Assembly: GCF_001077535.1 (NCBI RefSeq)
Contig: NZ_CP011968.1
Span: 3,038,001 to 3,102,000 of the forward strand
Reading direction: 5' to 3'
Source: Clostridioides difficile ATCC 9689 = DSM 1296
GTDB lineage: Bacteria > Bacillota > Clostridia > Peptostreptococcales > Peptostreptococcaceae
DNA length: 64,000 nucleotides
Part shown: positions 22,759 through 29,830 of the stretch, piece after piece
Numbering within the stretch: the first letter of the stretch is position 1
How the letters are laid out: each line of letters begins with the position of its first letter
The notes under the pieces: generated by a model
The model's input: the letters and a program-made list of their open reading frames with translations, nothing else
Databases searched by the model: none
What the model was told of the DNA's origin: nothing
Position numbers and translations under genes: made by a program

Positions 22759-23970
22759 TTAACTTTGATTTTTTATGTCTTTTATAATACAATTTGTCAA
22801 TAATTTTGTGTTTTTGTTCTTTTTAATACTAATTTTAGGTCTAACTTCAAAATTAGAAGCTAAATTTCTATTAGAATCAATATTTGTATTTACAACATCT
22901 ATAACCTTGTTAAAATCATATAATTTTATCCTGTTTATATTATTTTCTTCAAGTTTCTTTTCATATATACAGTAAAACAAATCTTTATATGAAAAATCCT
23001 TTGGCAATCCAAGCACCTCACCAAGCTTTGGTATTACACTTTCCATAACAGTTCTAAGTGAAGCATCTCTTTTTATATTCAATAAATTACAGATATATTG
23101 TATTGTTTCATTGCTCATACTTCTAAATTTATCAAAACAATATTCTTCATTATATTTATACTCTACATCAAAATAATACTTAATTCCAGTGCATCTTTCA
23201 TATGCTTTCATAGTATCTAAGTAACCTAGTCGGATGTTTTTTTCTACATTATCTCTATCTTTATTAAGAGAACCTCCTAGATATTCTGATGGTATTATAG
23301 TTTTTATATTTATATTTTGATGTCGATTTAGATTCATTTTCCCAATAAAATCATCAATCAACCTAATTACAACAACATCTTCATAACCTTTGTCTTCCAA
23401 GAGTCCTATTGGCATGTTATCACAAAACATTCCATCAAGATACAACTTATCATCCATCATGTTCGTTTGAAAAATAGGCAAACTGGAACTAGCAATTAAA
23501 TAATCAATCAATCTTCCTTTAGGTATATCTTCGATATACAATGGATATGGATTAATTTTTTTATCCCACCAGACCGTAACAAGTCCAAAGTCTTTTTTTG
23601 ATTTCCTTATTATGTCTTCATTTAATGTTGTCTCCATTAGTTGTCTTAATGGGCTTATATCTATACCTTCATTTTTTCTAGCTTTATTTATAAGCTCAAA
23701 CACTGCATTGAGATTTTTAGTAGTGAAATCTACATTTTTAAACCTCTCATAGGTTTCTCTATCAATATTCATAAAATGAGTATAGTCATAATTTAACCAA
23801 ATATCTTCCATTACTTCAATATCATTTTGAATTATATATGCTCCATTTAAAGCACCAATTGATGTGCCAGTTACTCCTTGAAACTCTATACCAAGCTCTC
23901 TTAAAGCTTTATATGCACCTATTTGGTAGGCTCCTTTTGTTCCTCCACCTTCTAAAACTAATCCTTTCAT
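22759..23970 (-). CDS. patatin-like phospholipase
   Basis: 403-residue patatin-family serine hydrolase. The oxyanion motif GGGTKGAYQIGA is at the N-terminus, the nucleophile is S37 in GTSIG, and the catalytic aspartate is in LYLDGMF near residue 175. There is no signal peptide, so it probably acts on lipids from the cytoplasmic side. The C-terminal ~130 residues match no domain I know. The ATG follows AGGTGA. It lies 231 bases downstream of camA on the same strand; the gap suggests its own promoter. Confidence 0.88.
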   Translation of the reverse strand: MKGLVLEGGGTKGAYQIGAYKALRELGIEFQGVTGTSIGALNGAYIIQNDIEVMEDIWLNYDYTHFMNIDRETYERFKNVDFTTKNLNAVFELINKARKNEGIDISPLRQLMETTLNEDIIRKSKKDFGLVTVWWDKKINPYPLYIEDIPKGRLIDYLIASSSLPIFQTNMMDDKLYLDGMFCDNMPIGLLEDKGYEDVVVIRLIDDFIGKMNLNRHQNINIKTIIPSEYLGGSLNKDRDNVEKNIRLGYLDTMKAYERCTGIKYYFDVEYKYNEEYCFDKFRSMSNETIQYICNLLNIKRDASLRTVMESVIPKLGEVLGLPKDFSYKDLFYCIYEKKLEENNINRIKLYDFNKVIDVVNTNIDSNRNLASNFEVRPKISIKKNKNTKLLTNCIIKDIKNQS

Positions 23971-23987
23971 ATTATCACCTACTATAT

Positions 23988-24095
23988 CAAAAACGTTTCT
24001 GATTTTTATTCTTAAGCAAATATTAATTCAAAAAACTATTTTTAGTTATTGGAGAAAAATAAAATTGCACAAATTCATTCTTATTTTATCAAAAA
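23988..24095 (+). promoter_or_regulatory. cluster of three CAAAAA (CamA target) sites
   Basis: CAAAAA occurs on the plus strand at 23988, 24029 and 24090 in the short gap between camA and the patatin gene. CAAAAA is the published target of CamA, methylated on the last A. Their position upstream of the patatin gene makes them candidate regulatory marks; the function is inferred. Confidence 0.4.
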
Positions 24096-24201
24096 AATAT
24101 TGAAAAGTATATATTTTTAATATTTTTTATATGGCTAACTTTTTATTTCTAAATTTAAATAAACAATTAAAAGATTATAATTTTTTAATACTTACAACTG
24201 C

Positions 24202-25935
24202 TTATATACCTAAAGAATCCATTATCAAGTTATCCATTTTTATCTGCAATTTTTCTACTTTTCCTTTATCTATAGACTTATTTAATAAAATTGATATTAT
24301 TTGCTTTGATAAATTCTCTATCTCTTCATAATTATTATCTCTAAAAATCCTTATCTTCATAACCTTATTAGGATAGTAATCATATATATTTTTACTCATT
24401 TTTTTAGCAGTTATTTTAAAGTATTTATCATAAACACTGGAATTTAAAATTCCAACTAGATATTCATATGAAAATTTATCTAAATACTCTTCTTTTATAA
24501 AAAAAGAATATACATCTGCACTTGAAAAATTGTTATCATAATCTATAGCAAATCTATTTTCATTTGATTTATAAGGATACATTATCTTTTTTCTTTCAAA
24601 GAAAAGCTTTTCTCTACCCCATTGAAGTTCATACCATTTCCTTATTCCACTTTTACATTCTCTTCTGTTTTCTAATTTTGTTTTATATAGCCCTATAATT
24701 TCATCTAGTATCCTTTTATTTGTATTCTCATTATCTATATCATTTGAGTATATTAGCCTATATTCACTTTTATCTACTATATATTTATTTATATTCTTAC
24801 TTTTTATCCAACATTTTAAAAATTTATCATCTACAAGGTTCAACTTTACATCATCTTTACTTAAAATAAACGCTTTATCACACCCTGTAATTATTCCTTG
24901 AAAACTTATTGCTATATCTTCCAAGCTATATTTACATTTTTCTTGTATCTTATTATAAAAAGTTTCATCATCTTTATTTACAAGTATCCATTCGTCAGAT
25001 AGCAATCTCTGAGTTATATTAAAATGTTCAAATTTGCTACTCTTTAGAAGTTCTTCCAATGTTTCAAATTTATTTATACATATATCCTCATTTTTGATTT
25101 TAAATACATCTATATATGTCTCTTTTGTTTTTTTCTTATCAAAAGTTAGAATACAACTAGATACCCCTATATTTTTAAATATATTTGCACCTAAAAAATC
25201 CACTATTTCTTGAACATTGACATTTGATTTAATATATTCTCTTAAATCTTTACCTGATAGACTTTCTAAAAAATATCTTGGAGTTATAACACTGCCAATC
25301 CCTCCTTGCTTTAAAATATCTATAATCTTTTTATAAAAACAAAAATATAAGTCAGCTTTATCCTTATAAACTTCACTATATTTTTCTAGGAGAAATTTTT
25401 TATATTTCTTTTCAAGTTTTTTATGACCAATATAGGGTGGATTACCCACTATGTAATCAAACTTATATCGCCATTTCTTTTTAAGACTATCACAACAAAA
25501 TAGATTAATCTTTATATCAGATTCATCTAAATCATTTACTACCTTTTTATTTGTTAAGCTATCTTTTAATATACTTATAGCTTTTTCATCAATATCAGCA
25601 CCATATATACAATAGTTTAATATATGACGGTGTATGTTATCAACAGTCCAATAATTTTCATCATACTTCTTTTTCAATTCATATATATTTTCCTCAAATA
25701 AGTCATATAAAATATCATATACTTCTAAAAGAAAATTTCCACACCCACAGGAAATATCAAGTATTCGTGGATATGGATTTTTAATTATATCGTGATTTTT
25801 TAAAGTTTTTTTTACAATATAATCTACAATTATTTTAGGAGTATAATATATTCCACTTGCTTTTTTAGTATCTACATCTAAGCTATTCTCATACTCTTTA
25901 GACAGTAGAAAATTATCTTGAGATATATCATCCAT
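24202..25935 (-). CDS. camA: CamA, orphan DNA adenine methyltransferase
   Basis: 577 residues, matching C. difficile CamA, which methylates the last A of CAAAAA and influences sporulation. Visible motifs: GIYYTPKIIVDYIV (motif X, about 28-41), the SAM-binding DISCGCGNFL (motif I, 60-69), and the catalytic NPPY at 165-168, the numbering I recall from the CamA structure. The remaining ~300 residues form the target recognition part. No restriction gene is adjacent, so it is an orphan. The ATG follows GGAGG. It is 39 bases after an Rrf2 regulator gene and is probably cotranscribed with that gene and the EAL gene. Confidence 0.95.
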   Translation of the reverse strand: MDDISQDNFLLSKEYENSLDVDTKKASGIYYTPKIIVDYIVKKTLKNHDIIKNPYPRILDISCGCGNFLLEVYDILYDLFEENIYELKKKYDENYWTVDNIHRHILNYCIYGADIDEKAISILKDSLTNKKVVNDLDESDIKINLFCCDSLKKKWRYKFDYIVGNPPYIGHKKLEKKYKKFLLEKYSEVYKDKADLYFCFYKKIIDILKQGGIGSVITPRYFLESLSGKDLREYIKSNVNVQEIVDFLGANIFKNIGVSSCILTFDKKKTKETYIDVFKIKNEDICINKFETLEELLKSSKFEHFNITQRLLSDEWILVNKDDETFYNKIQEKCKYSLEDIAISFQGIITGCDKAFILSKDDVKLNLVDDKFLKCWIKSKNINKYIVDKSEYRLIYSNDIDNENTNKRILDEIIGLYKTKLENRRECKSGIRKWYELQWGREKLFFERKKIMYPYKSNENRFAIDYDNNFSSADVYSFFIKEEYLDKFSYEYLVGILNSSVYDKYFKITAKKMSKNIYDYYPNKVMKIRIFRDNNYEEIENLSKQIISILLNKSIDKGKVEKLQIKMDNLIMDSLGI

Positions 25936-25974
25936 AACCGAAAACCTCCAATTATTATCATAGCTGAAAATTTT

Positions 25975-26373
25975 TTATTCTAGTATTTGTCTTATAGATT
26001 TTCTCGATAAAAGTTTATAAATTTCTTTTTCTATTTCTAGCAATTCACGATTTACTTTACAACCTTTTAAGCAATTACTGCAATTAGATACATATCTCGT
26101 ACATTTATTTATATATATTTTTCCATCAATTACTTCTACAATAGTTCTTAGACTTATTGTATCCAATGACACATTTAACATGTATGTCTTGCCATCTTCT
26201 TTGTTAAAAGTAAGAATATTGTTTGCACAAAGCTTTCTAAGCAGTCTGTATAGTGTTAGTATTGGTATATCTTCACTTTTTAATATCATTTTAGCATCTA
26301 TTGGTTTATCTTCTCCATTATTAAATATAGCTCTTATGATTCTTATTGAATAATCTACATCTTCTGAAATCAT
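25975..26373 (-). CDS. Rrf2-family transcriptional regulator
   Basis: 132-residue winged-helix protein. The start MISEDVDYSIRIIRAIF matches the Rrf2 N-terminus. A Cys cluster, CTRYVSNCSNCLKGC (C-x6-C-x2-C-x3-C, about residues 91-105), could bind a Fe-S cluster as in IscR/NsrR relatives, so it may sense redox or nitric oxide. It begins two bases after the EAL gene and lies 39 bases before camA. It is the obvious candidate local regulator of the operon. Confidence 0.88.
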   Translation of the reverse strand: MISEDVDYSIRIIRAIFNNGEDKPIDAKMILKSEDIPILTLYRLLRKLCANNILTFNKEDGKTYMLNVSLDTISLRTIVEVIDGKIYINKCTRYVSNCSNCLKGCKVNRELLEIEKEIYKLLSRKSIRQILE

Positions 26374-26375
26374 CC

Positions 26376-27923
26376 TTACTCCTCCTCAACTGTCATGCAT
26401 TTATCTAAAAGAGTATCTTTCAGATTTATATAACTTCCGTCAGTAAGAAGTTTTTTATAATTCATCTCATCCAAAGGTTTAAAAAATACATAACCTTGTA
26501 TGAAATTACATCCCAGTTCACTTAAGACTTTGACCTGATGCATATCCTCTACCCCTTCACATATAACAGTTACGTTTAAATCATGTGAAAGGTTAACAAT
26601 TGCTTTCACCATAAACTTTGTTTTTGTATTTGTAACTATATCCAATATAAGTGACCTATCAATTTTTATAATATCTAGTGGTATCCCCTTAAGATTGATA
26701 AAATTTGAATTACCTACTCCAAAATCATCTAATGATATATTCATACCTAAAGATTTAATCTCATAAAGCCTTTCACTTATAAATTTTACATCTCTTAGTG
26801 CTGTCGTTTCTGTAATTTCTAATTCTATAAGTTCTTTTGGAATATTATATGTATTAAACATCAGTTTAAAAAAATCAACTAAATCATTTTTATATAGTTC
26901 TACTCTAGAAAGATTTATTGAGACTGGTAAGACATTTATACCTTCTGAAATCCACTTGTTAATGGTAATAAAAACTTCTTGAATTAGCCATCTACCAATA
27001 TTGTTTATCAGACCATTTTTTTCAGCTATAGGTATAAACTTATTTGGTCCAACCATGCCTAATGATGGGTGCAACCATCTTATCAATGCCTCTGAACCTA
27101 TAATGTTACCTGTACTTGAATCAACTTTAGGTTGATAGTGAATTACAAACTCTTTATTTTTAATAGCCAAGAATAAATCTCTCTCTATTTTCATAATTGA
27201 TTGTATTTCTTCTTCCATAGCATTATCAAATTCTACATACTCTATGTGCTTTAGTCCTTTTGATTTAAGCCTTGCCATATCAGCATTATCTATAGCTTTT
27301 TTTATATCAATTTCATTATTGTTAAATTTATAAATTCCAATAGAAGCCTCAATATTTATATCCATTTTAAAACTGTCAATCTGACTTAGTATCACAATTT
27401 TATTCTTAATAAGATTTACTAAATAAGGAATCTTCTGTTCCCTATTTTCAAGCTTTATTATTAATACAAAAACATCACTTTTTAACTTTCCATAAATAGC
27501 TTCTTTTCCAAAATAATTTTTTAAGTTACTTAAAATATTATTTAACACTTCATCCCCTAGCTCATAACCATATATATCATTTATAAGTTTGAGTCTACAT
27601 AAATCAAAACAAGCCATTACACAGTTTTCTTTTTCATTACTGATAATATAATTTTGAACATGTTTTAGGAAGTTCTCATCTTTAGTAATATTTATAAACT
27701 TATCTGAATTATTTATCAATCCTAAATTAATTTTATCCTCATACAACTTAATTTTAAGATATGAAATAAATACATTTATACTAAACAAGGTTAATAAAAT
27801 TAAAATTAAAACTTTAATATCTACCTCAATATGTCTTGTGAGTAAAACTATTCCTAAAATTCCAATTATAATAAAAATTATTTTATTTAAACTGTAAATT
27901 CTTGTCATGCTATTTTTATTCAT
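26376..27923 (-). CDS. c-di-GMP phosphodiesterase with degenerate GGDEF and intact EAL domain
   Basis: 515 residues. Two N-terminal helices (about residues 12-58) anchor it in the membrane. A GGDEF-like domain follows (about 85-215), but the signature is replaced by KLKSDVF, so cyclase activity is not expected. The EAL domain (about 245-495) keeps SEALIRW, ELEITETT, DDFGVGNSNF, KIDRSLI and ICEGVE, the metal and catalytic motifs, so it should hydrolyse c-di-GMP. It is the first gene of the operon with the Rrf2 gene and camA. Confidence 0.92.
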   Translation of the reverse strand: MNKNSMTRIYSLNKIIFIIIGILGIVLLTRHIEVDIKVLILILLTLFSINVFISYLKIKLYEDKINLGLINNSDKFINITKDENFLKHVQNYIISNEKENCVMACFDLCRLKLINDIYGYELGDEVLNNILSNLKNYFGKEAIYGKLKSDVFVLIIKLENREQKIPYLVNLIKNKIVILSQIDSFKMDINIEASIGIYKFNNNEIDIKKAIDNADMARLKSKGLKHIEYVEFDNAMEEEIQSIMKIERDLFLAIKNKEFVIHYQPKVDSSTGNIIGSEALIRWLHPSLGMVGPNKFIPIAEKNGLINNIGRWLIQEVFITINKWISEGINVLPVSINLSRVELYKNDLVDFFKLMFNTYNIPKELIELEITETTALRDVKFISERLYEIKSLGMNISLDDFGVGNSNFINLKGIPLDIIKIDRSLILDIVTNTKTKFMVKAIVNLSHDLNVTVICEGVEDMHQVKVLSELGCNFIQGYVFFKPLDEMNYKKLLTDGSYINLKDTLLDKCMTVEEE

Positions 27924-27975
27924 ATAAATTCCCCTATTTTTTAAATTATCTTACAGTTAAACTTTATATATACTA

Positions 27976-28004
27976 ATTATAAAGCACAATTGATAGCAAA
28001 TCAA
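27976..28004 (-). promoter_or_regulatory. sigma-A-like promoter of the EAL-Rrf2-camA operon
   Basis: TTGATT (27999-28004) and TATAAT (27976-27981) on the minus strand with exact 17-base spacing. Transcription would begin near 27969, about 45 bases before the EAL gene start. Confidence 0.65.
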
Positions 28005-28092
28005 TGCAAGTTAAAATCACATATAAATAACTACATTACATTATACTAAATTTATTTTTTAAAATTTTATAACTATAAATTTTTTGCAAAAA

Positions 28093-28140
28093 AAACTATG
28101 AAATTAGATATAGATAAAATAATTTCTAATTTCATAGTTT
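28093..28140 (-). terminator. terminator downstream of the amidase gene
   Basis: A perfect 16-bp stem, AAACTATGAAATTAGA/TCTAATTTCATAGTTT, with a 16-base loop, followed on the minus strand by eight T residues. It isolates the camA operon from the upstream amidase gene. Confidence 0.88.
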
Positions 28141-28237
28141 CTAAATTCAAACAATATTTCCAACATTACGAAATAAAGTTAATACAATTTACACAGTTAA
28201 ACTTTTAAATTTATCCTCACATTAAAGTAAAGTTAAC

Positions 28238-29062
28238 TTACTTATTCCCTTTAGAATCTAGGTATGAAAGTACACCTTGAACAATTCCTTCCGCAAGTTG
28301 GTCTTGATATTTTTCATTTATTATTTTTTGTTCCTCTGAAGGTGTTGTTAAAAAACCACACTCTATTAATATAGCAGGCATATTTGATTCTCTAAGTACT
28401 TCAAAGTTATTTTCAACTATTCCCCTATCTCTAACTTTAACATAGGATACTATAGTACTTTGTACTGTCTGTGCAAGTTCTTTTGAACCATCTGTAGCTT
28501 TATTCCTATACCAAGTTTCTATACCTGTTGCTGTATTACCATTTTTCTCTGCATTTAAATGAATAGAAACAAGCACATCAGCAGAACTATTATTTGCTAA
28601 GATAGCTCTATCCTTTAATGATATATATGTATCATCAGTTCTGGATACTACTACTTGAATATCCTTTTGTTTAGATAATTTATTTGCTAATTTTTTTGCA
28701 ATTTGTAGATTTAGGTCTTTTTCATATCTATTACTGGTCTTGCTTTCAGTTCCTTTATCATTGCCTCCATGACCTGGGTCTATAAATACAGTATATTTTT
28801 TCTTTTTATTTTCCTCTTCATTACCAAGGTCAAATTGTTCTGAGTTAACATTTTGTTGTTGATTAGTTTTATTACTTTTATCCATACTTTTTACCAAAGC
28901 TACTACACCTTGAGTAGCCTTAAATGCAATAAATAAAAATAAAACTGTAAAGCAAATCAACACTGCTAACTTTTTCTTATTTAATTTTCGCTTTTTTCTA
29001 TTCAGATGACTGGTCTTTTTAGATTTGTTTCTTGAATTATTGTTATTATTGCCTTTTGACAT
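28238..29062 (-). CDS. membrane-anchored N-acetylmuramoyl-L-alanine amidase
   Basis: Cuts the amide bond between muramic acid and the stem peptide. Starting at the ATG at 29062 (AAGGGTGA upstream) it has 274 residues; a 27-codon upstream extension has no ribosome binding site. The N-terminus is very basic and Asn-rich, then one membrane helix (about LAVLICFTVLFLFIAF), then an Amidase_3 domain with zinc motif IDPGHGG, later SIHLNAE and the catalytic Glu in ILIECGFLT. Unlike Cwp6 it has no CWB2 modules. It follows the cis-prenyltransferase gene by 123 bases. Confidence 0.92.
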   Translation of the reverse strand: MSKGNNNNNSRNKSKKTSHLNRKKRKLNKKKLAVLICFTVLFLFIAFKATQGVVALVKSMDKSNKTNQQQNVNSEQFDLGNEEENKKKKYTVFIDPGHGGNDKGTESKTSNRYEKDLNLQIAKKLANKLSKQKDIQVVVSRTDDTYISLKDRAILANNSSADVLVSIHLNAEKNGNTATGIETWYRNKATDGSKELAQTVQSTIVSYVKVRDRGIVENNFEVLRESNMPAILIECGFLTTPSEEQKIINEKYQDQLAEGIVQGVLSYLDSKGNK

Positions 29063-29185
29063 TTCTTCACCCTTCTTGGTATAAATTTTTACACTTTTAC
29101 ATATTATTAGTGTTATTTTACCATCAAGAAGTTTTTTTTTCAATAATTTAAAACACTCTACAACCTTAAATCAGAATATTTTTAA

Positions 29186-29830
29186 TTATCCACCTAAAGT
29201 TACATCTTGTGTATCATACCAACTAAATGCGTCCTTTATATCGTCACTCTTAAAATCTGGCCAATAATTATCTATAACATAAAAATCTGCATAAATTGAT
29301 TGTACAGGAAGGAAACCACTTAATCTCCTTCTTCCACCCCATCTGATTATCAAGTCTAGTCTGGATACATCAAATGACTGTATGTAATCCTGTATATTAT
29401 TTTTATTTACATTTTCTACTCCTGATATATTATTTAAGTCCCAATACCAACCATAATTTACCAGAAGATTTGCTTTTATTTGACCTTCTTTGGCTTTAAT
29501 TCTATTAGTATATGGTAATAATTCTTCTGGAAACATTGGCGATTTTGTATTTCCTACAACTAATAAAGCAGCACCTTCATCTATTAATATATTTGCAGCA
29601 TCAATACATGCTTTTGTAAAAGCTTTTGTCTGCACTGATGGACGTCTTGTATTATCAGTTGTAAATCCATAAAAAGTCACCTCTTCACAGCCTAAATCTC
29701 TACATAATCTATAAGACTCTAGTCCAGGGTCTATTCCACTTTCATATCCTTTATCTTTTGTCATACCATTTTGACTTGCCCACCTTCTATTTCCATCCGG
29801 TATAATTCCTACATGTTTTGGTATTCTCAT
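29186..29830 (-). CDS. divergent cis-prenyltransferase (UppS family)
   Basis: 214 residues, shorter than the usual ~240-250. The Mg-binding PDGNRRWA motif (D12) is intact and the fold landmarks are recognisable to the WPDF near the C-terminus. The usual signature RTSGE-x-R-x-SNF is replaced by RWGGRRRLSGF, losing the Ser and Glu expected near the IPP phosphates. It may be a second undecaprenyl diphosphate synthase, or make a different product. ATG behind GAGAGGTGA. It is near envelope genes, which suggests a lipid-carrier role. Confidence 0.8.
   Translation of the reverse strand: MRIPKHVGIIPDGNRRWASQNGMTKDKGYESGIDPGLESYRLCRDLGCEEVTFYGFTTDNTRRPSVQTKAFTKACIDAANILIDEGAALLVVGNTKSPMFPEELLPYTNRIKAKEGQIKANLLVNYGWYWDLNNISGVENVNKNNIQDYIQSFDVSRLDLIIRWGGRRRLSGFLPVQSIYADFYVIDNYWPDFKSDDIKDAFSWYDTQDVTLGG

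Follow-up and report, generated by a model that had tools for sequence, protein, structure and literature searches.

The camA locus of Clostridioides

This analysis concerns a 64,000-nucleotide stretch of the Clostridioides difficile ATCC 9689 = DSM 1296 chromosome (hereafter the window; contig NZ_CP011968.1, C1:3038001-3102000 in genome G000 of our collection), and within it three minus-strand genes that follow one another in the same orientation. They encode a putative cyclic di-GMP (c-di-GMP) phosphodiesterase of the EAL family, an Rrf2-family regulator and the DNA adenine methyltransferase CamA, in that order:

26376-27923, minus strand: EAL gene, predicted c-di-GMP phosphodiesterase of 515 amino acids (aa) with a degenerate GGDEF domain and two predicted N-terminal membrane segments
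25975-26373, minus strand: Rrf2-family regulator gene (rrf2), 132 aa, Pfam Rrf2 at 52.5 bits
24202-25935, minus strand: camA, 577-aa orphan adenine methyltransferase for CAAAAA, matching solved CamA over its full length and in its base-contact residues
26381-26386, minus strand: AGGAGG Shine-Dalgarno sequence for rrf2, within the 3' end of the EAL gene; GAGGAGG in 8/8 genus genomes
25945-25949, minus strand: GGAGG Shine-Dalgarno sequence for camA, in the gap between rrf2 and camA; TTGGAGG in 8/8 genus genomes

The EAL stop codon lies 2 nt before the rrf2 start, and 39 nt separate the rrf2 stop from the camA start. An earlier interpretation made from the letters of the window alone (the sequence-only reading) had proposed these frames, their strand, both gaps and the three protein families. 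The open reading frames (ORFs) of the window agree with the former, and Pfam and NCBIfam models, together with the match to solved CamA chains, confirm the latter.

The same trio is present in all eight genomes of the genus set, which comprises the window's own genome and seven relatives (four contigs are named C. difficile). At the EAL/rrf2 junction the distance is +2 nt in three genomes, -1 in two and -4 in three, and the rrf2/camA gap measures 39 nt in seven genomes and 36 nt in one.

A conserved promoter-like site and the case for one operon

Upstream of the EAL gene, the intergenic region contains four elements:

27976-28004, minus strand: promoter-like site TTGATT-17-TATAAT, kept in 8/8 genus genomes
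27990-28006, minus strand: imperfect dyad ATTGAT-N5-ATCAAT over the -35 element, a weak candidate for an Rrf2 operator
28081-28092, no strand assigned: two CamA sites where the T run of the hairpin ends, TTTTTG (28092-28087; CAAAAA on the opposite strand) and CAAAAA (28086-28081)
28088-28139, minus strand: AT-rich hairpin followed by T8, likely the intrinsic terminator of the upstream uppS-amidase unit

Promoter-like sites are no commoner between 23900 and 28400 than in shuffled sequence (39 versus 37.5 +/- 7.2), and conservation was therefore used to judge TTGATT-17-TATAAT, the promoter named by the sequence-only reading. This site stood the test: it aligns at one position, with its 17-nt spacing unchanged, in all eight genus genomes, in a block where 25 of 31 alignment columns are identical, compared with 32 of 81 between the hairpin and the promoter. 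From -260 of the EAL gene to +150 of camA, four sites are conserved in at least seven of the eight genomes, and TTGATT-17-TATAAT is the sole non-coding one. Within rrf2 or the rrf2/camA junction, no sigma-A-like site reaches this level of conservation, the consensus tested being sigma-A-like only; the separate promoter before camA that would have spoken against a single transcript thus did not appear among conserved sites of this type.

The strong terminator that had been proposed to isolate the unit upstream is an AT-rich hairpin. A G+C-based terminator scan of the region missed it and reported none, but it folds in all eight genomes (z from -3.2 to -8.9), and a run of seven or more T residues follows the stem.

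Taken together, EAL, rrf2 and camA very probably constitute one operon, with TTGATT-17-TATAAT at 28004-27976 as its promoter. An overlap or a 2-nt spacing, as between EAL and rrf2, strongly indicates co-transcription, and the short, Shine-Dalgarno-bearing gap before camA, the promoter and the hairpin are all conserved in 8/8 genomes. We regard this comparative evidence as strong and infer from it the single transcript that the sequence-only reading had suggested. The paper first describing CamA is said to draw its gene context; in the parts of the literature that were searched, no description of an EAL-rrf2-camA transcript was found.

Three further regulatory candidates were considered in this region. 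The dyad is perfect in four genus genomes and carries one mismatch in the other four (from the alignment); it may be no more than chance, and was rejected as an Rrf2 operator for being too short and imperfect. Autoregulation through methylation of the upstream CAAAAA sites is a weak lead, since TTTTTG, present at the hairpin end in 8/8 genomes, is explicable as a T run followed by G, and the adjoining CAAAAA is found in only 3/8. For a riboswitch, Rfam gave no match in the window at the gathering score, nor any within 23000-29500 when E was relaxed to 0.5.

The EAL and Rrf2 proteins

The EAL protein matches Pfam EAL at 227 bits and, more weakly, GGDEF at 51 bits. The motifs of the EAL family (EAL, N, ExxE, DDFG, K, E and Q) are all intact in the alignment. 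The GGDEF site reads KSDVF, in place of the intact motif expected of a diguanylate cyclase. On these grounds the protein is expected to degrade c-di-GMP rather than to synthesise it. The N-terminal sequence shows two hydrophobic segments, which suggest that the protein is anchored in the membrane. Its relatives outside the genus measure 542-767 aa; the one that was scanned (L089) carries a dCache_1 sensor domain that the genus version lacks, and the EAL gene of L082 is 78% identical.

The Rrf2 protein exceeds the curated Pfam cut-off (52.5 bits against 30) and stays below the NCBIfam cut-offs, scoring 40 of 73.3 bits with the superfamily model and falling short of the IscR model as well. It is 91-95% identical across the seven genus relatives. 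Of two model-spanning Pfam Rrf2 matches in genome G000, one is the camA-linked protein; the other, at 1.38 Mb, scores higher. The camA-linked protein has one further feature:

26059-26103, minus strand: cysteine cluster C91-x6-C98-x2-C101-x3-C105, a possible cluster or metal site

All four cysteines are kept in 8/8 genus genomes, and C91, C98 and C105 are shared with three distant Rrf2 proteins. These three residues provide the conserved cysteines that IscR-like proteins have in the loop before the last helix, which makes iron-sulfur (Fe-S) sensing by this protein plausible.

CamA and its base-reading residues in other clostridia

The methyltransferase at 24202-25935 is, by sequence, CamA: it matches two solved chains (7lni and 8cxz) across residues 1-577, contains Eco57I/N6_Mtase/TaqI_C domains according to Pfam and NCBIfam, and has all published base-contact residues. 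CamA has been described as rare among other bacteria (PMC8187626) and as highly specific to C. difficile (PMC13395437). Our survey contradicts this premise. We compared 11 recognition-domain contacts (346, 349, 425, 438, 439, 441, 455, 456, 472, 473 and 521; list from PMC8187626); the full set is present in 52 of 56 loci and, among the named loci, in 61 of 78, with overall identity as low as 37%. The named loci come from the best 80 of 259 relatives, of which L192 and L196 gave no CamA ORF. Across 72 of the 78 named sequences (four near-identical Clostridioides rows and the fragments L163 and L168 were left out), the 11 contacts show a mean conservation of 98%, against 48% for residues 321-577, and none of 100,000 random 11-residue draws reaches 98%. 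Two more contacts, 514 and 517, lack such conservation (36% and 42%); including them lowers the mean to 89%, which none of 50,000 draws attains. Contact 171 varies among homologs.

Recognition of CAAAAA by the CamA-like proteins of other clostridia would be consistent with published CAAAAAR methylation in C. pasteurianum, C. ljungdahlii, C. autoethanogenum and Eubacterium limosum. In A. woodii, such methylation is reported to be assigned to one enzyme, and a common function of CAAAAAR motifs was already proposed in a 2023 paper.

Some homologs are unusual in size or integrity. Lengths of 765-958 aa occur (L119-L123, L130, L162, L175 and L191), mostly by N-terminal extension, judging from L122, and camA is split into several open frames in Faecalimicrobium dakarense (L106, L168). 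A phage or plasmid origin of camA was rejected, as the best matches have only 24-26% identity (two phage records and the listed rows of 51 plasmid records).

Age of the trio within the family

A CamA search of 100 relatives showed that 46 of the 53 family genomes outside the genus encode the protein (match at E <=1e-90); the remaining seven gave weak matches only. For 44 of the 46, the locus was fetched (G038 and G059 were left out), and neighbours were counted within four genes of camA on the same strand. The usual frame outside the genus, on one strand, is amidase_3, patatin-1 (~301 aa), camA, a 114-aa gene, patatin-2, HPr and PtsI. Among the 44 loci, the amidase gene is a neighbour in 32, patatin-1 in 23, the 114-aa gene in 25, patatin-2 in 31, HPr in 31, EAL in seven and Rrf2 in none. 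The genus shows another pattern, with EAL and Rrf2 in 8/8 and neither patatin-1 nor the 114-aa gene in any. The sequence-only reading had proposed a search for the trio in other Clostridia; the trio is kept in all eight genus genomes and is found at none of the 44 other family loci. Likewise, neither the 100 relatives nor 297 genomes of the order yielded an Rrf2 match above 40% identity outside the genus.

EAL and camA lie on one strand, in the same place, at seven of the 44 loci, which include those of Romboutsia maritimum, R. weinsteinii, R. lituseburensis, Clostridium sp. CCUG 7971 and Faecalimicrobium dakarense (where camA is broken). On a CamA tree of 55 of the 56 rows (the broken L106 was left out), the EAL-bearing rows all fall in one weakly supported fork of 22 rows. 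The EAL state changed at least four times on this tree, either by one gain and several losses or by several gains. Patatin-1 is retained elsewhere in the chromosome of all eight genus genomes, at 64-65% identity (in the window's genome at G000:C1:2361287-2362174). The neighbourhood comparison indicates that the EAL-camA link is older than the Rrf2 insertion and that Rrf2 took the place of patatin-1 in the genus. By this descent, camA would be old, the EAL gene would have been linked to it in a wider clade of Peptostreptococcaceae, and Rrf2 would then have replaced the patatin gene in Clostridioides.

The 114-aa protein that follows camA at 25 of the 44 loci (e.g. L103 6918-7262) has no Pfam family. 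Its gene was not found in the eight genus genomes at E up to 0.001 (insignificant matches occur in two). The idea that it is SpoIIAA-like was dropped, since profile comparison gave a probability of 0.8% and Pfam nothing above cut-off.

At five of the 78 named loci (L195, L206, L207, L214 and L215), all Clostridium, the opposite strand carries a different Rrf2-like gene (32-38% identity) two genes ahead of the camA homolog. A related one occurs at three loci of a second survey; these genes, of uncertain orthology, are not counted. This neighbour weakens the claim that an Rrf2 gene beside camA is unique to the genus.

Sigma-F genes and c-di-GMP enzymes beside camA in other clostridia

At L215 (6791-10576), the camA homolog precedes three genes on the same strand that score above the curated cut-offs for spoIIAA, spoIIAB and sigF. 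More generally, spoIIAA lies downstream of camA on the same strand at 12 of the 78 named loci (nine Clostridium, three Tissierellia), 95 to 5,337 nt away; some contigs are short, so that absence means little. A class survey, which overlaps the named loci and is not independent of them, covered 391 genomes, 46 of them with a CamA match at 1e-60, and 36 loci were fetched. In its family f51, taken as Clostridium, spoIIAA-spoIIAB-sigF follows camA after 77-1,438 nt at all nine loci whose contig continues (including L250-L257); the tenth contig ends 1,030 nt past camA. None of the 26 class-survey loci from other families has these genes after camA.

A c-di-GMP enzyme of the opposite kind is found in family f33. 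In two genomes, each from its own genus, camA is directly preceded by a diguanylate cyclase gene whose GGDEF motif is intact:

L260, 5695-8356: cyclase gene and camA, gap of 31 nt
L266, 6597-9279: cyclase gene and camA, gap of 16 nt

The other four of the six f33 genomes show no camA match at the class-survey threshold. In Tepidibacter, a PAS-GGDEF gene lies three genes upstream of the camA homolog. Nine genomes outside the genus contain 5-13 GGDEF matches each, which would put chance adjacency there well under 1% per place; two genus genomes contain 35 (G000) and 47. In yet other clostridia, the camA homolog is located at a glycogen phosphorylase gene cluster (L172, L181, L261, L262 and L271).

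These distributions tentatively suggest an old clostridial family of orphan methyltransferases that read CAAAAA and form part of sporulation control, with CamA as its representative in C. difficile. The family would be physically linked with the sigma-F operon in Clostridium and, at least twice, with c-di-GMP enzymes (EAL in Peptostreptococcaceae, a cyclase in f33); in Clostridioides, CamA would have been rewired into a unit under a genus-specific Rrf2.

Proposed function

The best overall explanation of the locus, to which we give guarded preference, is a pro-sporulation unit that pairs removal of c-di-GMP with CAAAAA methylation and has Rrf2 as its local regulator. The membrane-anchored EAL enzyme would hydrolyse c-di-GMP, and CamA would methylate CAAAAA sites. 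Quite possibly, the two co-expressed enzymes would both favour sigma-F activation, since c-di-GMP is reported to inhibit early C. difficile sporulation and CamA to promote it. In particular, the EAL enzyme PdcB is reported to raise sporulation (PMC8653836), and CamA to raise spoIIE expression and sigma-F activation (PMC13395437). A regulatory link between c-di-GMP and methylation may also exist. Rrf2 itself may set the dose of both enzymes, a more tentative step in which it would regulate its own operon and perhaps answer the Fe-S, redox or nitric oxide state. Rrf2 proteins often control their own operon.

Several observations weigh against this proposal. EAL is absent beside camA at 37 of the 44 other family loci, where patatin-1 and the 114-aa gene are commoner, and the enzyme beside camA in f33 is a cyclase, whose opposite activity misfits a simple same-direction rule. 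With 35 GGDEF matches in G000, one phosphodiesterase may matter little. The dyad over the -35 element is imperfect in half of the genus genomes, and the effect of CamA on infection is reported to be largely sporulation-independent (PMC13395437).

Plain co-transcription without joint function, in which an EAL-Rrf2 pair happens to precede camA and camA is constitutive like any orphan methyltransferase, seems rather unlikely to us. The confinement of Rrf2 at camA to the genus and the scarcity of EAL elsewhere in the family both fit it. So does the near-full methylation of CAAAAA reported for two ribotype 078 strains (98.75 and 98.8%; PMC5154133); under those conditions there is not much scope for control through enzyme dose. 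However, EAL-camA survives across several genera while the intervening protein changes, all eight genus genomes retain the promoter, the junctions and the gaps, and a diguanylate cyclase gene directly precedes camA in two genera of f33. An improbable arrangement is that of two units, in which the mapped promoter serves EAL-rrf2 and camA depends mainly on a promoter of its own inside rrf2, perhaps for another sigma factor. The rrf2/camA gap does exceed that between EAL and rrf2, and rrf2 contains poorly conserved promoter-like sites, promoters for other sigma factors lying outside the consensus tested; yet none of the sigma-A-like sites in rrf2 or the junction is kept in at least seven genomes, and the scan found no terminator-like site in the rrf2/camA region. 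An origin of CamA in a restriction or defence cassette of patatin, methyltransferase and 114-aa protein, with a secondary regulatory role, is very doubtful: Eco57I-type and BREX methylases are relatives of CamA, and patatin-1, camA and the 114-aa gene occur together in two surroundings, with and without the amidase/HPr genes, but a nuclease domain was found neither in CamA nor in an 898-aa relative, the homologs of Clostridium lie next to the sigma-F operon, and patatin-1 survives elsewhere in every genus chromosome.

If the locus is indeed a pro-sporulation unit, c-di-GMP turnover gains a physical link to the epigenetic control of sporulation. The wide spread of CamA-like proteins with unchanged DNA-reading residues would weaken the case for a CamA drug being specific to C. 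difficile, since gut relatives such as Romboutsia, Intestinibacter and Terrisporobacter carry such an enzyme, and would open the connection to sigma-F to study in harmless clostridia. The gene order itself is visible to anyone with a genome; the novelty lies in the comparative picture.

Comparison with known systems

The window methyltransferase is the same protein as CamA (CD2758) of C. difficile 630 over residues 1-577, with the same published contact residues. Published accounts present CamA as rare in other bacteria or highly C. difficile-specific, whereas we find homologs with the same base-reading residues widespread in clostridia. The EAL protein resembles PdcB and other C. difficile EAL phosphodiesterases in its EAL domain and in its likely membrane association. 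PdcB differs in being encoded by a separate, phase-variable gene, whereas the window EAL gene is fixed beside camA; PdcB also has a published effect on sporulation, and for the camA-linked EAL protein none was found in the portions of the literature searched.

The Rrf2 profile matches the solved chains of IscR, CymR, RsrR and NsrR, and three cysteines of the window protein have IscR-like spacing. It differs in having four cysteines and in a score under the NCBIfam Rrf2 and IscR cut-offs. Finally, the CAAAAAR methyltransferases reported from Clostridium and acetogens, such as Awo_c14460 of Acetobacterium woodii, share the core motif and place m6A at position 6, a likeness at the level of the motif. 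Their seven-base motif ends in a 3' purine, compared with CAAAAA for CamA, and their specificity may thus differ slightly from that of CamA.

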